DNA from: an uncultured Pseudomonadota bacterium
Lineage (GTDB): Bacteria > Pseudomonadota > Gammaproteobacteria > Steroidobacterales > Steroidobacteraceae
DNA length: 15,660 bases
Direction: 5' to 3'
NCBI GenBank assembly: GCA_946479515.1
Contig: CAMLGF010000078.1
Span: forward strand, 1-15,660
Position 1 is the first letter of the stretch. Each line of letters starts with the position of its first letter. The translations under genes were made by a program, and so were the position numbers. Shown one piece after another: positions 1,078 through 15,660 of this stretch. The notes under the pieces are model-generated. The model was not told the DNA's origin and ran no database searches. It was given only the letters and a program-made list of their open reading frames with translations.

Positions 1078-2772
1078 TCAGCGCGCGTCGGGAGTGATCT
1101 CGTGTCCGTCGAAGAACACGCGGGCGGGGCGCGTGCGGCGCACTTCGTCGGCCGTGGTGCGTGGGGTGAAGTGACGATCCAGCACGATGAAATCGGCGCG
1201 GCGGCCGACGGCGAGCGAGCCGACCTCCGACGCGCGGCCGATGAGTTTCGCGGCGCCACGCGTGTAGGCGGCCAGCATCTCATCGAGAGTCAGGGCCTCG
1301 GCGGGATTGAGCGGCGGGCGGTCGGGCTGCCCGGGATTGCGGCGTGACATGGCGGTGGCCATGGCCTCGAAGGGGTTGAACGAGCTCACATCCCAATCGC
1401 TGCCGCCGGCGACTGTGGCGCCGGCAGCGATCAACGAGCGTGCCGGATACAGGCGCGCCAGCCGTTCGGGTCCCAGCCAGGGGGTGAGGGCGTCGACGCT
1501 GTAATTGTCCGGCTGGGCCCAGAGAAGCTGCAGCGAGGCCGCCACGTCGAGACTGGCGAACCGCGGCAGGTCGGAAGGGTCGATGAGCTGCAGATGCGCG
1601 ATGCTCAGCAGTTGGCGGCTGCCGGCGGCGCGTGCCTTTGCGAAGACGTCGAGCGTCTCACGTACGGCGCCGTCGCCGATGGCGTGCACGTGGATGTTGA
1701 AGTGGCGTCTGGCGGCCTCGTCGACGAACGACTGCATGTCGGACGGCGTGAGATACAGTTTGCCCCGCGAGACGCCGGGCCGGCCGTCGGCCTCGCGGTA
1801 TGGCGCGAGCAGAGCGGCGGTCTGGGTGGGGTACTCCATGACACCGTCGGCAAACAGCTTGATGAAATCGGCGCGGAAAAGCGGGTCGTCTGCCAGCTGC
1901 CGGCGCAGGGACTCCAGGCGCGCGAACTCCTCGGGGGTGTTCCGGCCGCTGCTCTCGAAAGCGACAGTGATGCGCGCGTTCAGCTCATCGAGAGCGGCGA
2001 GCCTGGCGTAGGCGGTGACGGTGGGCTCGTCGGTGTTGGCTTCGAGATAGCTGGTGATGCCCGCGGCGTGCAGCTGCGGCAGCACGCGGCGCAGGGCATC
2101 GAGACGCTGCGCGAGGGTGGGCGGGTCCATGGCCGAGAGCACGAGGCCGGTGGCGCCGTCGATGAGAAAACCGGTCGGCTCGCGGTGCGCATCGCGTTCG
2201 ATGCGGCCATCCTCGGGGTCCGGGGTGTCGCGCGTGATGTTCGCGAGTTCGAGCGCGCGGGTATTGACCCAGGCGGTGTGGCCATCGCTGCCCCACAGGA
2301 ACAGGGGGCGCTGGTGTTCGATGGCGTCCAGGTCCTTGCGGGTGACCCTGAAGCCGGCGGCGTTGACTTCGTTGACCACGATCCATTGGGACGTCGTGTC
2401 GGCCGCGATGCAGGCGCGGATGGGCGCGGCGGCCTGGGTCACTGTGAGCTGCCGATCGTGCAGCGAGCAGCCGCCCAGCGCGAGCGCGCCTGCGGCGGCA
2501 TGGATGTGACTGTCGATGAGGCCGGGCAGCACGGTGCGGCCGGCGGCATCGATCACGGTGGTTTGTGGAGCTATCCACTGGGCGATGTCGGTGTCAGTGC
2601 CGATGGCGACGATCTTGCCGTCCGCGACCGCGAAGGCGGTGGCCAGCGGCGCAGCGGTGTCCATGGTGCGCACGTCGCCGTTGCGCACGATGAGATCCGC
2701 GGCGTCGTGCGGCGCGCTGCAGGCGCAGAGCAGCGCGGCGATGAAAATGGGGGCAACTGAAAATGGGGACAT
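1078..2772 (-). CDS. Amidohydrolase family protein (YtcJ-like), putative lipoprotein
   Basis: A 564-residue metal-dependent amidohydrolase of the YtcJ/amidohydrolase-3 type. The metal ligands are visible: DSHIH at residues 87-91, a candidate bridging lysine in FIKLFADG (Lys305), HVHAIGD at 361-367, His393 in AHLQLI, and GGSDWD with Asp459. The family hydrolyses amide or related C-N bonds; the substrate here is unknown. The N-terminus has a hydrophobic segment and a lipobox-like LCAC ending at Cys18, so the protein is probably exported and lipidated. The n-region is odd because it has no basic residue. The only ATG (2770-2772) lies inside a palindromic repeat whose stem would cover it, and no Shine-Dalgarno sequence is present. 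The true or ancestral start may therefore have been replaced by the element. It lies downstream of DUF1761 and AraC on the same strand. Confidence 0.88.
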   Translation of the reverse strand: MSPFSVAPIFIAALLCACSAPHDAADLIVRNGDVRTMDTAAPLATAFAVADGKIVAIGTDTDIAQWIAPQTTVIDAAGRTVLPGLIDSHIHAAAGALALGGCSLHDRQLTVTQAAAPIRACIAADTTSQWIVVNEVNAAGFRVTRKDLDAIEHQRPLFLWGSDGHTAWVNTRALELANITRDTPDPEDGRIERDAHREPTGFLIDGATGLVLSAMDPPTLAQRLDALRRVLPQLHAAGITSYLEANTDEPTVTAYARLAALDELNARITVAFESSGRNTPEEFARLESLRRQLADDPLFRADFIKLFADGVMEYPTQTAALLAPYREADGRPGVSRGKLYLTPSDMQSFVDEAARRHFNIHVHAIGDGAVRETLDVFAKARAAGSRQLLSIAHLQLIDPSDLPRFASLDVAASLQLLWAQPDNYSVDALTPWLGPERLARLYPARSLIAAGATVAGGSDWDVSSFNPFEAMATAMSRRNPGQPDRPPLNPAEALTLDEMLAAYTRGAAKLIGRASEVGSLAVGRRADFIVLDRHFTPRTTADEVRRTRPARVFFDGHEITPDAR

Positions 2773-2864
2773 GCCTAATTATTGCTGTCACATTTGACCA
2801 GCATCTGCAGTGACCGCGGTTCGAACAAATGTGACAGCAATAATTAGGCATGTCCCCATTTTCA
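2758..2864. repeat. Palindromic element A (39-bp perfect inverted repeat)
   Basis: The left arm 2758-2796 and right arm 2826-2864 are perfect reverse complements over 39 bases, separated by a 29-base loop (2797-2825). The arm carries AATGGGGACATGCC, then an A/T-rich core, then GCTGTCACATTTG. Element B at 4186-4314 is a second copy with a related loop (17 of 27 aligned bases identical). Each end presents an outward-facing ATG (GGCATGTCC). The element separates the DUF1761 stop (8 bases away) from the amidohydrolase, whose ATG lies in the left arm. No transposase is nearby. Structure and repetition suggest a non-autonomous (MITE-like) or REP-type element moved in trans; the family assignment is inference. 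Confidence 0.85.
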
Positions 2865-2871
2865 TTTTCAT

Positions 2872-3270
2872 TCAAGGCATGAGCGAAAGCACCAGCCCGA
2901 ACAGGGTGAATTGCACGGTGTGGTATCCGCCATTGATGGCGAACAGCTTGAAGCTCCGTCGCTCGAACAGATAGTTGATACCGAAGCTGCCGGCCACCCA
3001 GAGCAGGCCGGCGGACGCGCCAGCGCCTAGTCCCAATGCCAGGGACGGTCGTGGTCCGAGGAAATTGGCGAAATTCCACGCGGCGAGCAAGGCGAGTACG
3101 AACGAGAGGCCGAAGATCCGGGCCATGTTGCCCTGCTTGAGCTGCTCGTCGGTGAGTCCGGCTTCGCGTTGCCACGCCTTGCCGAACAAGAGCGGTGAAT
3201 ACCAGAGTCCGCCGAGCACGAAACTCGCCACTGCGGCCACGACCACTGCGATCCAGTTGATTTCAGGCAT
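2872..3270 (-). CDS. DUF1761 domain-containing membrane protein
   Basis: A 132-residue small integral membrane protein that matches the DUF1761 family in length and pattern. The N-terminus reads INWIAVVVAAVASFVLGGLW, followed by YSPLLFGKAW, a polar stretch (residues 36-50) and then three more hydrophobic segments at about 51-70, 77-97 and 115-131. The function of the family is not established. The start at 3270 is chosen because GGAGGG lies just upstream (complement of 3274-3279) and the family begins this way; the open frame continues upstream but the extension is not protein-like. It is the second gene after the AraC-type regulator (70-base gap, same strand), so co-transcription is likely. 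Its stop sits 8 bases from palindromic element A. Confidence 0.88.
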   Translation of the reverse strand: MPEINWIAVVVAAVASFVLGGLWYSPLLFGKAWQREAGLTDEQLKQGNMARIFGLSFVLALLAAWNFANFLGPRPSLALGLGAGASAGLLWVAGSFGINYLFERRSFKLFAINGGYHTVQFTLFGLVLSLMP

Positions 3271-3273
3271 GAA

Positions 3274-3279
3274 CCCTCC
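3274..3279 (-). promoter_or_regulatory. Ribosome binding site of the DUF1761 gene
   Basis: GGAGGG on the minus strand lies 3 bases before the ATG at 3270 (a little close, but strong). It decides the start, excluding the longer open frame that continues toward 3537. Confidence 0.6.
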
Positions 3280-3340
3280 CTCTTGTACCGAGATTCTGCG
3301 CCCGACCGAGCAGCGAGTATTGGAAAAAAAGGAAGTGCCT

Positions 3341-4210
3341 TCAGCGCAGGACGACGCTGCCGGTGTCGGGCCGGTCCTTGCGCATGAGCTCGGTAGGGGA
3401 GAGGCCGGTGAAGCGCCGGAACTCGTTGGCGAGGTGCGCCTGGTCATAGAAACCGCAGTGTTCGGCCAGCGCGGTCCAGGGTACGGCGCCAGTTGTGCGG
3501 TTGACGAGGTCGAGGGCGGCTCGAAAGCGATGCACACGGGCCAGGGACTTGGGAGTCAGGCCCACCTGCTGCCGGAAAAGATTGCCGAGGTGGCGGCGCG
3601 TGAAACCGGTCTGCCCGGCGAGTTCCTCGATGGCCACGCGTCCGGCACTGCCGGCGATGCGATCGGCGGCCCAGCGCACGGAAGGATGCACTTCGAGCTG
3701 CGATTCGAGCCGCGCGATGAGCCAGCGCTCGACCATGCGGAAACGTTCCTCGAGCGCGGGCGTGTTGAGCAGGCGTTCGCGCAACGCCAGGACGCCGCCG
3801 CCCACGGCGTCCGCCAGCGCGACGATACGATCGGAGAATTCATCCATGCACTGGCCCAGCCAGGGAAAGACCCCGCGGGCGCTGAAGGCCACGCCTAACA
3901 AGGCGTTGCCGTGTGGAGCCTCGGTGTCGATCGGCCCCTGGTGCAGCCCCGAATACCAGACATCGATGAAGGGCACGCGAATCTCGGGGGGACCGGGATC
4001 GATGCGGTACTGCGGCGGGCCGAGGTTGATGAGCAGCTGGCTCTGGCCCGAGGGCAGGATGCGGTCGCGCTGATAGGCCGTCCTGCCTTCACCGAACCAC
4101 ATGCTGGCCACCATCCCGGCCAGGCGAGCGTGCGGGCGCCAGAGGCTGAGCTGCCAGTTGCCGATGGGCGAGTCGTGGTTGAAGCGGGAAAGAGGGGAAA
4201 ATCGGGACAT
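3341..4210 (-). CDS. AraC family transcriptional regulator (helix-turn-helix)
   Basis: A 289-residue regulator. Residues about 20-125 form a ligand- or sensor-type N-domain of the sort found in AraC proteins with a DUF6597-like N-terminus (WRPHARLAGMVASMWFGEG, ILPSGQSQLLINLG). Residues 180-275 form the AraC DNA-binding domain, with a first HTH around 194-215 (IEELAGQTGFTRRHLGNLF) and a second at about 245-272 (LAEHCGFYDQAHLANEFRRF), followed by GLSP. The effector and targets are unknown; the adjacent DUF1761 gene is the likeliest target or partner. The apparent ATG at 4210 lies inside palindromic element B, so about the first eight residues (MSRFSPLS) are element-derived. The next in-frame ATG (residue 33) would cut into the conserved N-domain. 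No good Shine-Dalgarno sequence is seen. Confidence 0.88.
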   Translation of the reverse strand: MSRFSPLSRFNHDSPIGNWQLSLWRPHARLAGMVASMWFGEGRTAYQRDRILPSGQSQLLINLGPPQYRIDPGPPEIRVPFIDVWYSGLHQGPIDTEAPHGNALLGVAFSARGVFPWLGQCMDEFSDRIVALADAVGGGVLALRERLLNTPALEERFRMVERWLIARLESQLEVHPSVRWAADRIAGSAGRVAIEELAGQTGFTRRHLGNLFRQQVGLTPKSLARVHRFRAALDLVNRTTGAVPWTALAEHCGFYDQAHLANEFRRFTGLSPTELMRKDRPDTGSVVLR

Positions 4211-4314
4211 GCCTAATTATCGCTGTCACATTTGACCGCGATCTCCAGCGCTCGCAACTCGCACACAAATGTGACAGCGATAATTAGGCATGTCCCGATT
4301 TTCCCCCCTTTCCC
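4186..4314. repeat. Palindromic element B (49-bp inverted repeat, one mismatch)
   Basis: Left arm 4186-4234 and right arm 4266-4314 pair over 49 bases with a single mismatch (4193 against 4307); the inner 41 bases (4194-4234 with 4266-4306) are perfect. The 31-base loop (4235-4265) resembles that of element A. The stem differs from A at two positions in the shared part, and both arms carry matching changes. The outer arms are purine/pyrimidine tracts, and a run of 33 pyrimidines (4299-4331) extends on the plus strand toward the esterase stop. The ATG used by the AraC-type gene lies in the left arm, at the same place as the amidohydrolase ATG in element A. Confidence 0.85.
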
Positions 4315-4333
4315 CTCCTTCCCCCTCCCTCAT

Positions 4334-6139
4334 CTAATCATTCGTCCAGATCCACCTGAGGATTTCGGGCAGCAGCACGCCGCCGTGCTGGTCGGAGTGG
4401 CCGCCGTCGCCCCACTGGTGCCGCACCTCGTAACGCGTGCCGAGCGTGCCGGCGCGATCGGCCTTGGCATTCGCATACTCGAACGCCGACAGCATCTGCT
4501 GGTTGGCCAGGAACCAGTTGCCGTGCTCGTTGGACAGATCGTGGTCCCCGTCCTGCAGGAAGATGCGGATGGGCTTGATCGGGTTCTTGCGGATCAGCGT
4601 GGGATACAGGTCGCCACCCGGCACCATGGGCCTGCCATCGGCCGCGGGCACGTAGCCGATCGACGTATAGCTGCCGATCATGCTGATCACGCGGCGGAAG
4701 TAGTCAGGCCGCTGCCAGGCCGCGGTGAATGCCGCGATCGCGCCGCTCGACGTGCCGCCGATGACGCGCTTCTCCGGGTCGTCGGTGAGGCGATACTTCT
4801 TCCCCACCTCGGGCAGCAGCTCTTCGATGAGCATGCGCACGTAGCTGTCATTGAGCGCGTCGTACTCCTGCGCCCGGTGATTCGGGTTGCGCATGTCGAG
4901 GTCGGTGGGGTAGGTCTCGCTGGTGTTCCCCGGCGTCACGAACACCCCGATGGTCACCGGCATCTGCCCCTTGCCGATGAGGTTCTCCATGACCTGCGGC
5001 ACGCGCAGCGAGCCGTGCGGATTCGTCGCTCGCTGGCCGTCCTGGAACACCAGCAGGTTCGCGGGCCGGGGCTTCTTCGCGTCGTACTGCGCAGGCACAT
5101 AGATCCAATAGCGGCGCACCGTGCCGGCGATGATCTGGCTCTTGAGCTCGAACGGCCCTTCGAGCCGCCCCTGCGGAATGCCCTCCTGCGGCAGCGAGTC
5201 CGGCATGAACGCGTACTCGCCGGGCCGGCGCATGGCGGGCTTCACGCCCTCGGCGAACTTGCAGTCCTCGGGCACGTGCTTGACGAAGTAGCGCTTGTAA
5301 TTGAGCGCATTGCGGTCCATGCAGCCGGCGAGATCGAGCAGTTCCACCTTGCGGAAGTCGATGGGATGCGACTCGCTCTGCAGCGAGATGTAGCCGCTGT
5401 CGAGCGGCTTGCCGTCGAGCTTGGTGGTGGTGTCGTAGTGGTCGACCTGGCCGCCGCCGAACTGTGGCTGCGAGTATTCGAGCACTTTCTCGCCGTTCAC
5501 GTAGTGGCTGATGGTTCCCGAACCGTGCACGACGATCTCGGCGCGCACCCACTGGTCGCCGTCGAAAGTGGGCGACGAGGAATTGAGGCAGTGGTCGGGG
5601 TAGATAGTGCCCTGGTATACGATCTCGGTGCCGGGGCTGCACATGTTCGCGGTCGGCCGCGGCTTGCCGTCGCCATTGCCGCCCAGCAGCTGCGCCTCGA
5701 TGGAGATCGGGAAAGTCTGGTCACGCGGCATGGTGCGCGGATCGGGTGAATGCAGCATGGCGCCCGAGTTGCGCAGCGCCCACGAGCCGGGGTTGCCGGG
5801 CGCCTGCGCGCCGACGAAGCGGTACTCGACCACCAGCTTGTAATAGGAGAACGGCTGCTTGTAGAAGAGATGGCCGAACTGCCCGTCGAAGCTCTTGTAC
5901 TGGTCGTAGCGCACCTTGAGAAGGCCGTCTTCCACGCGGAAGGTGTTGCCGAAGTTCTCGCCCAGCTCGTGCCGGGTGATCTTCGGCGTCCAGCCGGTCA
6001 GATCCTTGCCATTGAACAGGACGATCCAGTCCTCGCGGGCGGGGTCGCGTTCGCCGTTCGCGGCGGGCGGCGTTTGCGCGCCGGCCCAGGCGGTGGCGAG
6101 GACGAGCGAGGCGGTGAGGGCGAGCGTCTTGGAGCGCAT
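4334..6139 (-). CDS. DUF1080 (3-keto-disaccharide hydrolase fold) - esterase fusion protein
   Basis: A 601-residue exported two-domain protein. A Sec signal peptide covers about residues 1-22 (ends AGAQT). Residues 35-270 are a DUF1080/PF06439 domain, a concanavalin-like fold linked to glycoside processing (VLFNGKDLTGW at 40-50, then a GYISLQSE strand at 249-256). A linker follows with GCMDRNALNY at 272-281 and a second Cys at 293, probably a disulfide-stapled loop. Residues 330-598 are an alpha/beta-hydrolase of the Fes/enterochelin-esterase or feruloyl/acetyl-xylan-esterase type: nucleophile Ser464 in GTSSG, Asp near 530-534 (QDGDHD), His in GDGGHSDQHGG (581 or 585). The ATG at 6139 starts a proper signal peptide; the open frame continues upstream as non-protein-like sequence. 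The start is 2 bases after the GH43 stop, so translation is probably coupled. Deacylation of xylan or related glycans is inferred from context. Confidence 0.85.
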   Translation of the reverse strand: MRSKTLALTASLVLATAWAGAQTPPAANGERDPAREDWIVLFNGKDLTGWTPKITRHELGENFGNTFRVEDGLLKVRYDQYKSFDGQFGHLFYKQPFSYYKLVVEYRFVGAQAPGNPGSWALRNSGAMLHSPDPRTMPRDQTFPISIEAQLLGGNGDGKPRPTANMCSPGTEIVYQGTIYPDHCLNSSSPTFDGDQWVRAEIVVHGSGTISHYVNGEKVLEYSQPQFGGGQVDHYDTTTKLDGKPLDSGYISLQSESHPIDFRKVELLDLAGCMDRNALNYKRYFVKHVPEDCKFAEGVKPAMRRPGEYAFMPDSLPQEGIPQGRLEGPFELKSQIIAGTVRRYWIYVPAQYDAKKPRPANLLVFQDGQRATNPHGSLRVPQVMENLIGKGQMPVTIGVFVTPGNTSETYPTDLDMRNPNHRAQEYDALNDSYVRMLIEELLPEVGKKYRLTDDPEKRVIGGTSSGAIAAFTAAWQRPDYFRRVISMIGSYTSIGYVPAADGRPMVPGGDLYPTLIRKNPIKPIRIFLQDGDHDLSNEHGNWFLANQQMLSAFEYANAKADRAGTLGTRYEVRHQWGDGGHSDQHGGVLLPEILRWIWTND

Positions 6140-6141
6140 GT

Positions 6142-7791
6142 TCAATCCTGTCTTGCGTAGGGTCCCAATACCGTACCGACGAAGCCGCCGGCGATTTCCG
6201 TGGACAGAATGGAGCCGTCGTCGTGTTCGAGCAGCGGCTGCCAGCCCTGGCCGGCGTCGTAGTAGAAAGAATGGTCCTTGCCGGTGGCGCTGACGCGTAG
6301 CTTGAGTGCGTTCGGGGTCGCGGCGAGCTCCTCGAGCTCGATGCGAGTCCGGGCGCCGGCGCGCCGCTCCACGAACAGCTGTGCGCCCGCGCCCTTGCGC
6401 CGCAAGCCGACGAAATACCAGTGGGTCTCGTTCTGGAACAGCGCCAGGCCCGCCGACACGCCCGGCGGCGGCATGCCGAGCTCGGTGCTGGCGTCGAAGT
6501 TCATGTGCTGCTGGCGGCGTGCGAGGAATGACGGGTTGCGCATGGCGTCGAGCGCGACGTCCAGCGGCTGGATTTCGAGCGCGCCCTCGCGCGTCTCGTA
6601 CCACTGCCGCCGGGGTACGTGAATCTGCAGCCATTCGGGGCCGGGTGCGCCGTCGAACTCGTCGCGCCGCGTGAAGTTGCCGGTGAGATCGTCGCCGCCG
6701 GGGGCCATGCGCCGATCCGGCGCGCGCAGCGCGCGCGGTCCTTTCACCACGTAGGGGATCGGCTTGCCCGGGGCGAGGATCACGGGCCAGCCGTCGCGCC
6801 AGGTGACGGGCAGCAGAAAGGTCTCGCGCCCGGTGTTGAACTGCATGCCCTGGTAGGGGCGCGAGGCGAGGAACAGCACCCACCAGCTGCCGTCCTTCAT
6901 CTGGATGAGATCGGCGTGACCGGCATTGGTCACCGGGTCGGCGCGATCCGCCGGCAGATCACGCTGCGTGAGGATGGGATTGAGCGTGCCGGGCTCGAAC
7001 GGCCCCCAGGGCGACTTCGCGCGGAAGATCACCTCGGAATGGTTGCGTTCCGTGCCGCCCTCCGCGCACATGAGGTAGTACCAGTCATCGATGCGGTAGA
7101 GATGCGGACCCTCGATCCAGATGGGTTGCTGCGCGATGTCGACGCCGCCGTCCACCAGCACCTTGCGCGGCCCGATCAGCCTGCCGGCGGCCTCGTCGAA
7201 CTCCTGGATCCAGATCGCGCGGTGGCCGCCGTACTTGGGCGCACCCGCCGGCGGCCCATTGTTGACGATGTACGCCTTGCCGTCGCGATCGAAGAAGAAC
7301 GAGGGATCGATGCCATCGATCTCCTTGAGCCATATCGGCTTCGACCACGGTCCCGCGGGGTTCTTCGCGGTCACGTAGAAATTGCCGCCGGCATCGACCA
7401 GGGTGTTCACCACGTAGAACGTGCCGTCGTGGTGATGGATGGACGGAGCGAACACGCCCTTGGAGATCCGCAACCCGTCGAAGGAGACCTGCGCCGGATC
7501 GGACAGCGCGTGGCCGATGAGCTTCCAGTGCACGAGGTCGGTGCTCTCGTGAATGGGAATGCCGGGCCAATGCGCGAACGTGGAATTGACCAGGTAGTAC
7601 TTGTCGCCGACCCGCTCGACCGCCGGATCGGGGTAATACCCGGCGAGCACCGGATTGCGATAGCTGCCCGCGGGCAGCGGCAGCTCGTTGGTGGCGTCGC
7701 GGCCGGTGTATTCGAACCAGTGGAAGCGCACGGCGTCGGCCTGGGCGGCGGCCGGCAGCGATGCCAGCACGACTAACAACAATGAGCGCAT
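6142..7791 (-). CDS. Glycoside hydrolase family 43 protein (beta-xylosidase/arabinofuranosidase-like)
   Basis: A 549-residue exported glycosidase. A Sec signal peptide spans residues 1-20 (MRSLLLVVLASLPAAAQADA). Residues 45-350 form the five-bladed beta-propeller of GH43: the candidate catalytic base is Asp55 in GYYPDPAVER, the pKa-tuning Asp162 lies in GIDPSFFFD, and the acid Glu227 in WIEGPHLY. Residues about 370-545 form a C-terminal beta-sandwich of the GH43_C2/XynB type, a usual partner of xylosidases. Activity on xylo-oligosaccharides or arabinose side chains is expected from family and neighbours; exact specificity cannot be read. The ATG at 7791 is chosen because it begins the signal peptide; the frame stays open upstream to 7974 across the neighbouring acetyltransferase. 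The stop is 2 bases before the esterase start and the start is 19 bases after the acetyltransferase stop. Confidence 0.92.
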   Translation of the reverse strand: MRSLLLVVLASLPAAAQADAVRFHWFEYTGRDATNELPLPAGSYRNPVLAGYYPDPAVERVGDKYYLVNSTFAHWPGIPIHESTDLVHWKLIGHALSDPAQVSFDGLRISKGVFAPSIHHHDGTFYVVNTLVDAGGNFYVTAKNPAGPWSKPIWLKEIDGIDPSFFFDRDGKAYIVNNGPPAGAPKYGGHRAIWIQEFDEAAGRLIGPRKVLVDGGVDIAQQPIWIEGPHLYRIDDWYYLMCAEGGTERNHSEVIFRAKSPWGPFEPGTLNPILTQRDLPADRADPVTNAGHADLIQMKDGSWWVLFLASRPYQGMQFNTGRETFLLPVTWRDGWPVILAPGKPIPYVVKGPRALRAPDRRMAPGGDDLTGNFTRRDEFDGAPGPEWLQIHVPRRQWYETREGALEIQPLDVALDAMRNPSFLARRQQHMNFDASTELGMPPPGVSAGLALFQNETHWYFVGLRRKGAGAQLFVERRAGARTRIELEELAATPNALKLRVSATGKDHSFYYDAGQGWQPLLEHDDGSILSTEIAGGFVGTVLGPYARQD

Positions 7792-7810
7792 GATCCCCCT
7801 CGCGTCGTTC

Positions 7811-8332
7811 TCAGCCATCGACGGGTGTGGCCGGAGTGCGCAGTATGAGCTGATAGAACGCCAGGTCCAGCCAGCGACCGAACTTGAAACCCGCCTGCCG
7901 CACCACGCCGCAGGCCTTGAAACCCAGGCTCTCGTGCAGCTTGATGCTGACGGAATTGGCGGCGTCGATGCCACCCACCATCACGTGATAGTCCTGTCTC
8001 TCGGCTTCCAGGATGACGGCGCCCAGCAGCGCGCGGCCCAGGCCCTGCCCGCGACAGTGGGCGTTGACGTAGATCGAGTGCTCCACCGTGTATTTGTAGG
8101 CTGGCCAGGCGCGAAACGGTCCGTAGCTGGCGAAGCCCATGAGCTGGCCGCGGTCGTCCTCCACGCCGATCACCGGGTAGCGGCCGCGCGCCTTGGCCTC
8201 GAACCAACCCACCATGGATTGCGCGGTGCGCGGCTGGTAGTCGTACAGCGCGGTGGAGTTGGCGATGGCCTCGTTGAGTATCTCGAGGATGGCGGCCGAA
8301 TGCCGCGCGGGCTCGCACGCGACGATGTTCAA
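7811..8332 (-). CDS. GNAT family N-acetyltransferase (phosphinothricin acetyltransferase-like)
   Basis: A 173-residue cytoplasmic acetyl-CoA-dependent acetyltransferase. The N-terminus carries the substrate-side pattern of the Pat/Bar-type group (ILNEAIANSTALYDYQPRT, residues 17-36), then FASYGPFRAWPAY, the HSIYV strand, and the acetyl-CoA loop RGQGLGR at 94-100. The C-terminal half has VGGIDAANSVSIKLHESLGF and FGRWLDLAFYQ, all typical of the group. Such enzymes acetylate phosphinothricin, methionine sulfone/sulfoximine or related amines; the native substrate here is unknown. The likely start is TTG at 8332, overlapping the TGA of the upstream GH10 gene in a TTGA arrangement, which implies translational coupling. 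It is odd to find this enzyme between two exported xylan hydrolases. Confidence 0.88.
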   Translation of the reverse strand: MNIVACEPARHSAAILEILNEAIANSTALYDYQPRTAQSMVGWFEAKARGRYPVIGVEDDRGQLMGFASYGPFRAWPAYKYTVEHSIYVNAHCRGQGLGRALLGAVILEAERQDYHVMVGGIDAANSVSIKLHESLGFKACGVVRQAGFKFGRWLDLAFYQLILRTPATPVDG

Positions 8333-9492
8333 GCGGGCTCGCCCTGGGGAATGGCCGGACGTCGGAACGGCGCGGCCCGGAATGCCGCGGCGATCGCGTC
8401 TCGCAGGGGCTTGGGCTGGAAACTGGCGTCGAAGGGCGTGGGGCGCTTGGGCAGGCCGTCGGCGCGCGGCGTGCGGCCCTGCAGCCACGAGTAGTTGTCC
8501 GCCAGTCCCCAGCACAGCACGGCCGTCACCTCGCGGAAATCGAGCGTGAGGTCGAGGAAGCCGCGGCCGAGCGCGGCGACTTCGCGGTCGCGCTTGCGGA
8601 TCTCGGCGGTGAGCGGCGCGTCGTGCACGTCGAACTCGGTGATGATCAGGCGATAGCCCATGCCCGTGACCTCGCGCAGGAACTTCCGCCAGGCCTTCTC
8701 GTCGCGTGCGTCGAAGGCGCGGCCGGCATTGGCATCCTGGTTGCCGGCGCCGATGTGCGCCTGGATGCCGAGCGCGTTCACCGGGGCGCCGTTGCGACGC
8801 AGGCGCTCCAGCAGACGCAGCACACCGTCGCGGTGCGGCGCGTTGTCCTTCTCCCAGCCCATGTAGTCGTTGTAGACCAGCTCCGTGTCGGGTAGTTGGT
8901 CGCGCGCGATGTGGAAAGCCATTTCCACCACCTGGTCGGAAGTGCCGATGGCGCGCGAAAAGAGGGTTTCGCGCATCTCGCCGGTGAGATTGTCCACGGC
9001 CTCGTTGACCACGTCCCAGGAAACGATGCGCTTGCCGAATTCCGCCGTGGTCTTGCGGATGTGCGCCTCGAGCAGCCCGGCCGCGGCGGTCGCGGGCTCG
9101 TTGCCGAAGTCGTAGCCCTGCAGCCAGCGCGGCAGCCAGCGGGGGTGATGCCACAGCAGCGTGTGGCCGCGCATCCGCATCTGGTGCTCTTCGGCGAATT
9201 GCAGCACCCGGGCCGCGGGCGCGAAATCGAACTCGCCCGGCTTGCGCTGGATGTACGCCATCTTGAGCTCGTTCTCGGGCACCAGGATGCCGCACTGCGC
9301 GGCGATGAGCTCGAGATATCGCGGGTCGCGCAGCCCGCGGCCGCCGAGCGCGCTGCCGAAGCGCAGGCCGCGCTTGCGCGCGATCACGTGCAGCGAGTCG
9401 TCGGGACGGGCGGCCAGGGCCGGGCCGGCGCAGGCCGCGGCGGCGGCCGCGAGGCCGGTACCGATGACGTGTCGACGCGACCAGCGTGCCAC
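8329..9492 (-). CDS. Glycoside hydrolase family 10 endo-1,4-beta-xylanase, Tat-exported
   Basis: A 387-residue xylanase cutting internal beta-1,4 bonds of xylan. The N-terminus is a twin-arginine signal (SRRHVIG, residues 5-11, then an alanine-rich core and an AxA-like site near residue 28). The TIM-barrel GH10 motifs follow: VPENELK at 71-77, GHTLLWHHPRWLP at 109-121, the acid/base Glu164 in DVVNEAVD, NDY at 208-210, QAHIG at 244-248, and nucleophile Glu286 in IITEFDVHD. The WGLADNYSWL block at 328-337 is the conserved end of the barrel. The start is GTG at 9492, three bases after the upstream gene's TAG. The 3' end overlaps the acetyltransferase start by 4 bases. A Tat signal is notable because the neighbouring GH43 and esterase carry Sec signals. 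Confidence 0.95.
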   Translation of the reverse strand: MARWSRRHVIGTGLAAAAAACAGPALAARPDDSLHVIARKRGLRFGSALGGRGLRDPRYLELIAAQCGILVPENELKMAYIQRKPGEFDFAPAARVLQFAEEHQMRMRGHTLLWHHPRWLPRWLQGYDFGNEPATAAAGLLEAHIRKTTAEFGKRIVSWDVVNEAVDNLTGEMRETLFSRAIGTSDQVVEMAFHIARDQLPDTELVYNDYMGWEKDNAPHRDGVLRLLERLRRNGAPVNALGIQAHIGAGNQDANAGRAFDARDEKAWRKFLREVTGMGYRLIITEFDVHDAPLTAEIRKRDREVAALGRGFLDLTLDFREVTAVLCWGLADNYSWLQGRTPRADGLPKRPTPFDASFQPKPLRDAIAAAFRAAPFRRPAIPQGEPA

Positions 9493-14340: not shown

Positions 14341-14973
14341 TCAGAACGGCAGGCCGTGGCCCGCCGAGATCATGCACAGAAGCATCGGAAACGACAGGAT
14401 GAAGTTGGTGCGCGAGGCGTAGAGCGCGACCTTGCGCGCCTTGGCCTTTTCTTCATCGGAGGCGGGCTTGAGGCCGAGGATCTTCTTCTGGTTGGGCCAG
14501 ATCAGTCCCCAGACGTTGAACAGCATGATGGTGCCCAGCCAGGCGCCGATGCCGATCACGAAGAGCTTGAAGTCGAGAGCCGGCAGCAGAAGGCTGAGCG
14601 TGAAGGCGTTGACGAAGCCGCGCGGTCCGATTTCCTCCAGCAGCCAGGCGCCGACCACCCAGGTGGCGAGAGCCGACCAGCGGAACCAGAACAACGCGCG
14701 CGGGGCGACGTACTTGCCGATGGCGGCGGGACCGGGGCCGCCCTTGTCCTCGGTGGCGGCGGCCTGTGCCGGCACCTGCACGGCATTGAAGTAGTAGAGC
14801 AGCCCGATCCAGAAAATGCCGGCGCCAATGTGCAGCCAGCGGCCGAAGGACTGGGCGTTCAAGGTGTAGGAGGTCTGCGGGTCATTGAGCGAGGCGTGCA
14901 GCACCCAGGCCAGGACCGCCGTCAGGATGATGCCGGTGACCAGTGCGACGCGATGATTCGTGAATATTTTCAT
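14341..14973 (-). CDS. PuuD-like (urate oxidase N-terminal type) membrane protein
   Basis: A 210-residue inner-membrane protein resembling the membrane domain of the PuuD urate hydroxylase family. Hydrophobic segments lie at about 9-28, 46-65, 93-112, 120-158 (two segments) and 190-205. Family-like features are the histidine in RWLHIGAGIFWIGLLYYFN (45-63) and MLFNVWGLIWPNQKKILG (150-167). The usual cytochrome-c-like C-terminal domain is absent, and no purine-catabolism genes are nearby, so urate oxidation should not be assumed. The start at 14973 is backed by GGGGAG 9 bases upstream. It is the probable first gene of the run continuing into nadC and the exporter, with a candidate promoter at 15003-15031. 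Confidence 0.8.
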   Translation of the reverse strand: MKIFTNHRVALVTGIILTAVLAWVLHASLNDPQTSYTLNAQSFGRWLHIGAGIFWIGLLYYFNAVQVPAQAAATEDKGGPGPAAIGKYVAPRALFWFRWSALATWVVGAWLLEEIGPRGFVNAFTLSLLLPALDFKLFVIGIGAWLGTIMLFNVWGLIWPNQKKILGLKPASDEEKAKARKVALYASRTNFILSFPMLLCMISAGHGLPF

Positions 14974-14982
14974 TGTTTTAAT

Positions 14983-14988
14983 CTCCCC
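14983..14988 (-). promoter_or_regulatory. Ribosome binding site of the PuuD-like gene
   Basis: GGGGAG on the minus strand, 9 bases before the ATG at 14973. It fixes the start of this gene. Confidence 0.6.
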
Positions 14989-14998
14989 TGTGAGCGGT

Positions 14999-15031
14999 TT
15001 GAAGAATAGGGGACGAGCCCCCATAATTCAA
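14999..15031 (-). promoter_or_regulatory. Candidate sigma-70 promoter overlaid by a dyad
   Basis: On the minus strand TTGAAT (15026-15031) is followed after exactly 17 bases by TATTCT (15003-15008), each matching the sigma-70 consensus at four of six positions. A transcript would start about 25 bases before the PuuD-like ATG. The same stretch forms an imperfect dyad: TTGAA at 14999-15003 with TTCAA at 15027-15031, and GGGG at 15009-15012 with CCCC at 15018-15021, 11 of 14 arm positions pairing. This would suit a repressor operator, but no experiment supports it. Confidence 0.4.
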
Positions 15032-15067: not shown

Positions 15068-15556
15068 ATGGAACGCCCGCAATCTCCCTGCATCAAAGTC
15101 TGTGTGCTGCACCCCGGCGGCCGATGTTCAGGTTGTTTGCGCACCCTCGATGAGATCGCCGCGTGGAACTCGATGAGCGCCGTGCAGCAATGGGCCGTGG
15201 TCAGGGCGCTCGAAGACAGGAGACGACAAGTGGCTGAAGACGTACTGAATCGCATCAAGACTCATATTTCCACGAACCCGGCCGTGCTGTTCATGAAGGG
15301 CACGCCGGACTTTCCGCAGTGCGGCTTCTCGGCGCAGGCCGTGCAGGCGTTGCGCGCCTCGGGCGCGAATTCGTTCCACGCGGTGAACATCTTCGAGGAT
15401 CCGGAGCTGCGTGAAGCGCTCAAGAAGTTCTCGAACTGGCCTACCTACCCCCAGCTGTACGTCAATGGCGAACTGGTCGGCGGTTGCGACATCGTGCTGG
15501 ATATGCACCGGAGCGGGGAGCTCAAGAAGCTGCTGTCCGAGGCCGGGGCTGTTTAA
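15068..15556 (+). CDS. DUF1289 domain in frame with Grx4-type monothiol glutaredoxin
   Basis: A continuous 162-residue frame from ATG 15068 to TAA 15554-15556. Residues 1-54 are a DUF1289 domain: cysteines at 8, 12, 20 and 23 in the C-x3-C-x7-C-x2-C pattern, then RTLDEIAAWNSM (25-36). Residues 55-162 are a complete glutaredoxin. No stop separates them. DUF1289 proteins are usually short free-standing proteins of unknown function that may bind metal or Fe-S. AGGAG and GTG at the junction (15218-15232) suggest that glutaredoxin is also made separately. The product may thus be a fusion, two nested proteins, or two genes whose separating stop was lost. A weak AGGA precedes the ATG by 2-5 bases. 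Confidence 0.7.
   Translation: MERPQSPCIKVCVLHPGGRCSGCLRTLDEIAAWNSMSAVQQWAVVRALEDRRRQVAEDVLNRIKTHISTNPAVLFMKGTPDFPQCGFSAQAVQALRASGANSFHAVNIFEDPELREALKKFSNWPTYPQLYVNGELVGGCDIVLDMHRSGELKKLLSEAGAV
15218..15222 (+). promoter_or_regulatory. Internal ribosome binding site for the glutaredoxin start
   Basis: AGGAG, 7 bases before GTG 15230-15232 and inside the DUF1289 reading frame. Its quality is better than that of the upstream ATG, which supports independent initiation of glutaredoxin. Confidence 0.6.
15230..15556 (+). CDS. grxD: Grx4 family monothiol glutaredoxin
   Basis: A 108-residue protein if initiated at GTG 15230, the usual length for Grx4/GrxD. The active site is CGFS at residues 31-34 preceded by MKGTPDFPQ; the glutathione-binding WPTYPQLYVNGELVGGCDI is at 70-88. 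Monothiol CGFS glutaredoxins bind [2Fe-2S] clusters with glutathione and help Fe-S transfer in the cytoplasm rather than mainly reducing disulfides. The start agrees with family length and with AGGAG 7 bases upstream. The same frame extends upstream into DUF1289 without a stop. It is divergent from the PuuD-like/nadC run. Confidence 0.85.
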   Translation: MAEDVLNRIKTHISTNPAVLFMKGTPDFPQCGFSAQAVQALRASGANSFHAVNIFEDPELREALKKFSNWPTYPQLYVNGELVGGCDIVLDMHRSGELKKLLSEAGAV

Positions 15557-15560
15557 GAGC

Positions 15561-15649
15561 GGTGGGGGGGGGGGGGGGGGGGGGGGTGTTGTGGGTGGGG
15601 GGGTGGTGGGGGGGGGGGGGGGGCGGGGGGGGGGGAGGGGGGGGGAGGC
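15561..15649. other. G-homopolymer tract at the window end, probably artefactual
   Basis: About 90 bases almost entirely G with a few T, A and one C, including an uninterrupted run of 23 G (15564-15586). No coding or regulatory structure is visible. Such strand-biased poly-G is typical of no-signal calls in two-colour sequencing that end up at a contig edge, so the sequence after the glutaredoxin stop should not be trusted. Confidence 0.7.
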
Positions 15650-15660
15650 ACGGACACAAG

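Follow-up and report, generated by a model that had tools for sequence, protein, structure and literature searches.

How do two long palindromes come to differ from each other in their stems while the two arms of each remain perfectly matched? This question is raised by a 15,660-nt stretch of DNA from an uncultured Steroidobacteraceae bacterium (GenBank assembly GCA_946479515.1, contig CAMLGF010000078.1; hereafter the window, meaning the whole stretch analysed), which holds two such palindromes, element A at 2758-2864 and element B at 4186-4314. The answer that we favour, at a probability of roughly 0.6, is that A and B are non-autonomous terminal-inverted-repeat (TIR) palindromes of the TIRtron kind, which would be moved in trans by a Y1 transposase and whose arms would be kept alike by the copying of one arm from the other.

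Two palindromes with compensated stem differences

In element A, the left arm (2759-2796, plus strand) and the right arm (2826-2863, minus strand) are identical when inverted at 38/38 positions around a loop at 2797-2825, and the arms of element B that form the stem common to both elements (4197-4234, plus strand, and 4266-4303, minus strand, around a loop at 4235-4265) likewise agree at 38/38. A comparison of A with B shows two arm positions that differ, position 7 (G in A, C in B) and position 25 (T in A, C in B), each time in both arms; the chance of both differences coinciding in this way is about 1.6e-4, assuming that changes in the right arm are independent of those in the left. The preliminary description of this DNA, which had claimed a common stem of about 38 bp with two differences, both compensated and none uncompensated, is hereby confirmed, and its estimate of loop drift (17 of 27 positions identical) lies close to our ungapped agreement at 18 of the first 29 positions, the loops being 29 nt long in A and 31 nt in B. 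Outside the common stem, element B carries a left outer extension (4186-4196, plus strand) that pairs with a right one (4304-4314, minus strand) at 10 of 11 further positions, and A has one extra pair and, past a mismatch, two others. In folding as single-stranded DNA, 2755-2867 (A) reaches -47.6 kcal/mol (z -14.7) and 4183-4317 (B) -60.4 kcal/mol (z -16.9), values that none of 200 shuffles equalled in either case.

The window holds 74 open reading frames (ORFs) of at least 80 aa, mostly in overlapping frames, and the 15 of them scanned with Pfam include no transposase, in line with the earlier claim that none is present. Neither is a target duplication apparent by eye at A or B, where no formal test was made.

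A sister family beside Y1 transposases in a relative

Among the 217 family genomes searched, the AraC-type regulator of the window found homologues at E <=1e-40 only in G001, G096 and G097 (identity 74-77%), and these three served as comparators; the membrane protein at 14341-15024 likewise has its best match (71%) in G001 (L005), with Steroidobacteraceae-titled genomes among the next. The window's own species is represented by the window alone, and the results on the sister family come from G097. With no more than one mismatch, the arm pattern GGGACATGCCTAATTAT occurs 47 times in G097 (27 forward and 20 reverse), and the reversed pattern, used as a control, gave no match in G097 and one match in one other genome. 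The 18 G097 places among the matches listed comprise 15 distinct ones, namely 12 palindromes and three single arms, one of which is the end adjoining a transposase gene. The common arm in G097 reads AAAAGGGGACATGCCTATTTATTG, and three of the listed places read CCTAATTA, the same as the window. When as many as 4 mismatches were allowed in 19 nt, the GGGGACATGCC and GGGGACAGATC classes together had 114 arms in 2.4 Mb of G097, forming 51 inverted pairs, of which 41 are innermost, 8 enclose nested elements and 2 are long-spaced. G097 therefore contains a dispersed family with inverted dimers, and the window itself holds two copies. The two long-spaced copies (C1, 2603989-2604242 and 2609668-2609927) have GGGGACATGCC ends and core spacers of 215 and 221, and the second has a long palindrome in its interior.

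G097 also encodes six Y1_Tnp genes, all flanked by inverted repeats of 13 to 32 nt: GGGGACAGATC (22 nt) at L112, GGGGACATGCC (19 nt) at L113, GGTGCCGGGGTGCAATT (32 nt) at L114, GGTGCCGGGAAGGGGG (28 nt) at L115, GGGTGCCGGGTG (13 nt, plus 10 further in) at L116 and AAGTCGGTGCCGGGT (17 nt) at L117. Within the first 1.2 Mb of G097, five of these six repeats correspond to palindrome classes, and the repeat of L115 has only a similar palindrome there (2800269); a palindrome class with two copies in that part, GGTGTCAGG, has no Y1 gene assigned. The L113 enzyme, of 231 aa, scores 48 bits against Pfam Y1_Tnp (cut-off 23) and matches PDB entry 4er8 at E 0.001, and in L112 Pfam (E up to 0.1) finds Y1_Tnp alone. 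The predicted further copies and Y1 gene with the same termini were thus both found in a relative, G097, with part of the arm shared. Y1_Tnp was matched in 5 of 15 other relatives and in none of the remaining 10. Three Y1 genes elsewhere, L103 (G024), L105 (G021) and L107 (G017), lie between inverted repeats 16-29 nt long of the GGTGCCGGG or GGTACCGGG type, which represent a second terminus type besides GGGGAC.

The same sites were then compared among relatives, which are about 75% identical and whose sites do not settle the question of copying. Read by eye, site B carries no element in G097, is occupied in G001 by a different, decayed palindrome with mismatched arms, and is rearranged downstream in G096. 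The G001 palindrome L304 is absent at the matching place in G097, the G097 element 230674 is absent from G096, and at the site of L303 G001 and G097 carry different palindrome classes. Relatives thus differ in which sites are occupied, and the sites have been filled independently of one another, in the way expected for mobile DNA. For other G097 elements, both flanks have diverged in the relatives (2636337), other sequence is present (2634343, 2628244 and 2639068), the outer palindrome is absent in both relatives (4310314), or no relative spans both flanks (4467299 and 4200193). One intergenic site, shared by G096 (L211) and G097 (C1, 2625168), holds different classes in the two genomes, each with another palindrome inside, and is a site that has been repeatedly filled.

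It could be argued that the palindromes are instead immobile cellular RNA or DNA structures, such as terminators, mRNA hairpins or protein-binding sites, selected in place. A and B indeed have very stable folds and each lies between tandem minus-strand genes, an arrangement that would suit such a role, and several searches returned no element: the exact palindrome had no match in genome contigs, the 17-mer had four matches in viral contigs, none with an inverted arm within the next 150 nt (two of them, L002 and L004, fall within ORFs of phage contigs), the 31-mer had none in viral contigs, and A had none in plasmids, for which B was not searched. The exact-palindrome search was too strict, because the common G097 arm is one letter different. 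Moreover, orthologous sites in relatives are empty or filled with another class, the family is dispersed and has its termini at a Y1 gene, and Rfam offered no family at gathering score, so that we regard an immobile cellular structure as highly improbable.

Proposed arm copying, nesting and pairing into the flanks

How, then, would mobile palindromes keep their arms alike? Each element may be regarded as one terminus that is present twice, in opposite orientations and with a short spacer between, and a Y1 (HUH, IS200-like) tyrosine transposase would act on it in trans, presumably also in the window's own host; that the elements would move through folded single strands we infer from the enzyme family. 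The arms would probably be maintained by the copying of one from the other, either through template switching at the hairpin or through synthesis primed on the folded element, in which a 3' end lying against the opposite arm would be extended along that arm, correcting the arms and possibly running on into the flank. Such a step would make a compensated pair out of a single change, and the pairing could spread into the flank. As a mutation process, template switching produces compensated changes in a single step and may give rise to new stems; Monttinen and Loytynoja (2022, PMC8794818) describe it for RNA genes, and the case here is a mobile DNA element. According to PMC8266576, TnpA-REP cuts single-stranded repeats and leaves a phosphotyrosine and a free 3' OH, which might, by analogy with other HUH enzymes, prime synthesis or perform strand transfer.

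The arms of the G097 elements are matched within elements to a degree that shuffling does not reproduce. For 24 elements with a spacer of at least 30, 84 of 96 inner-stem cells are paired, whereas 1000 shuffles, in which right arms were dealt among elements of the same class, averaged 53 and never exceeded 70; compensated departures number 24 against a shuffled mean of 9.8 and maximum of 18, alongside 5 one-sided cells and 7 in which both sides had changed and did not pair. The core gives 649/656 paired cells, with 5 compensated and 7 one-sided changes, a count that is biased since arms were chosen on the core. Of nine loci examined in G001, seven have GATC, and the other two have GACC or GAGC in both arms. 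The within-element likeness in G097 fits arm copying, or amplification and descent from sources with matched arms. Consequently, the proposal in the preliminary description of selection for the folded form, or of hairpin replication and conversion between arms, is partly supported: the arm matching recurs in G097, and selection, copying and matched-source descent are not separated by it.

The pairing also extends outward, as it does in the outer extension of B. Leaving aside elements nested in those of the GGGGACATGCC and GGGGACAGATC classes, 43 G097 elements remain, of which 17 pair at least 4 bases beyond AAAGGGG, compared with 1.8% of cross-element pairs, and none of 20,000 permutations reaches the total. 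After removal of the 11 elements with a motif of another element in their 40-nt flanks (from a motif list of our own choosing, drawn up after the flanks had been viewed), the figures are 10/32 against 1.3% of cross-pairs, with none of 50,000 permutations; the dropped elements had extensions of 29, 22, 18, 15, 15, 6, 4, 3, 3, 1 and 1. For 4310314 and 4200193 we discarded the reading of their long extensions as pairing in unique flanks, as both look nested in other GGGGAC palindromes. The pairing into flanks may be the part of these observations that is new.

A different account grants that the elements are mobile and dispenses with arm copying: their pairing would be kept by selection on recognised hairpins or inherited from a few matched sources, and the paired flanks would reflect insertion at the centre of existing palindromes. 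Nesting does occur, for eight GGGGACAGATC elements lie inside elements of the two classes (in seven cases the host is a GGGGACATGCC element and in one another GGGGACAGATC element; no nested GGGGACATGCC element was seen among the G097 arm pairs in 2.4 Mb), and there is published precedent in REP (repetitive extragenic palindrome) dimers inserted in palindromes, for which PMC3733652 reports unoccupied targets by the hundred in one of three families and none in the other two. The G096 site of 230674 is, besides, a natural 8-nt palindrome in which CTGA adjoins TCAG. Yet to either side of the element G097 shows 10 extra paired bases that the G096 site lacks, and among flank stems of at least 6 bases 11/15 begin right at the core with no loop bases left. 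Palindromes free of the motifs, with a loop of 0-2 nt and arms of at least 14, number just 5 in 2.4 Mb. The nested element at 704698-704815 (C1) has both outer arms truncated at the same letter (CATGCCTGG), which is hard to explain by simple loop insertion. We therefore consider mobility without arm copying a serious contender, though a doubtful one.

A bolder form of the copying scenario holds that self-primed fold-back accompanies each cycle of replication or insertion, in which the Y1 enzyme would release a 3' end that copies the opposite arm and some of the flank, so that elements would correct themselves, lengthen by incorporating flanking DNA into the stem and become nested palindromes. 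This we put forward as a rather unlikely extension.

Several observations weigh against our favoured reading of A and B as TIRtron-like palindromes maintained by arm copying. The arm at one mismatch was found in just 1 of the 217 family genomes, and the 28-nt arm pattern, at up to 3 mismatches, in 0 of 24 relatives; the further copies and the Y1 gene with its termini are known from G097 and not from the window's own species; and G097 shares only the outer ~26 of the 38 nt of the window arm, the inner 12 nt (CTGTCACATTTG) not being shared. The L113 enzyme stays just under the cut-off of REP_Tyr_transpos NF047646 (79.6 bits, and 73.3 for L112, against 80), and Pfam at E up to 1 finds in it Y1_Tnp and a sub-cut-off AT_hook, with no HTH or DnaA-C domain. 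Finally, several of the long flank extensions are due to nesting in other elements, and the amplification of source elements already matched would also yield the likeness of arms within elements.

Known systems, neighbouring genes and wider meaning

In TIRtrons and TIRYT, a Y1 gene resembling the REP-associated tyrosine transposases (RAYT) sits between inverted repeats that bear no relation to GTAG REPs; in the two papers found to use the term TIRYT, the TIRs are described as dispersed families, often dimers, many but not all of which share GGGGWSAS (Di Nocera 2013, PMC3733652), and TIRtrons are linked to subclass 2.1 of TnpA-Y1 (Quentin 2018, PMC6006769). For the sister family, the likeness lies in the non-GTAG GGGGACATGCC repeat inverted around the L113 gene of G097, and GGGGACAG of G097 and GGGGTCAG of G001 match GGGGWSAS at all 8 positions. 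By eye, the terminus of A (GGGGACAT) agrees with that motif at 7/8 positions and the terminus of B (CGGGACAT) at 6/8, both short of the full motif, and neither L113 nor L112 shows in Pfam the C-terminal Bac_DnaA_C, HTH_23 or HTH_28 that marks subclass 2.1. Nested TIR palindromes and flank pairing are not described for TIRtrons in the accessible text of PMC3733652 and PMC6006769, and a literature search that combined nested palindromes with transposable elements or with tyrosine transposases brought up nothing on point among the titles and abstract openings listed.

Like REPINs and GTAG REPs with their RAYT (TnpA-REP), A and B are small, palindromic, non-autonomous, intergenic and partnered, as it appears, with a Y1 enzyme, and they form inverted doublets; they differ in that the hairpin is the entire element of about 107-129 bp, as opposed to a REP unit of 20-50 nt, and that GTAG and GTGG are absent from both, including 10 nt on each side and both strands. 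The link to REPs suggested earlier consequently does not fit, their termini resembling the GGGGWSAS TIRs. Miniature inverted-repeat transposable elements (MITEs) are small non-autonomous elements with terminal inverted repeats that are moved in trans. A and B are alike in size, lack of autonomy and inverted ends, whereas the matching transposase type here is Y1/HUH and a target duplication is missing by eye. Judged from sequence, A and B are best read as Y1-linked inverted-repeat palindromes in a broad sense, outside subclass 2.1, and not as REPs.

The elements may also have touched the genes beside them. The amidohydrolase gene (1078-2772, minus strand) has its start codon as listed (2770-2772) inside the left arm of A, and the gene of the AraC-type regulator (3341-4210, minus strand) has its own (4208-4210) inside the left arm of B. 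The homologues of the regulator align from residue 3, 6 or 7, and the G096 proteins begin differently (MRITAGFL for the amidohydrolase, MHHNRLQTF for the regulator), so that the window may owe both start codons to A and B; this is a deduction, as the ORF listing picks the first possible start. The DUF1761 ORF as listed (2872-3537, minus strand), whose 3' end adjoins A, ends in LMP, its homologues being longer by 11 residues (G096) and 10 (G097), and its end looks as if cut by A. Further along, 4334-9492 carries genes for an esterase with 3-keto-disaccharide hydrolase, GH43, GNAT and GH10, a carbohydrate cluster probably for xylan use, and the contig end at 15545-15650, with its long G runs and a few T, looks like a sequencing artefact.

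Compensated changes in a stem are usually taken as the sign of a selected RNA structure, and here they are found in mobile DNA palindromes, where they can result from the copying of arms or from sources already matched. Having six Y1 genes, and as many kinds of repeat flanking them, G097 would offer a compact test system both for the discrimination between enzymes and repeats and for the growth of palindromes by flank copying.

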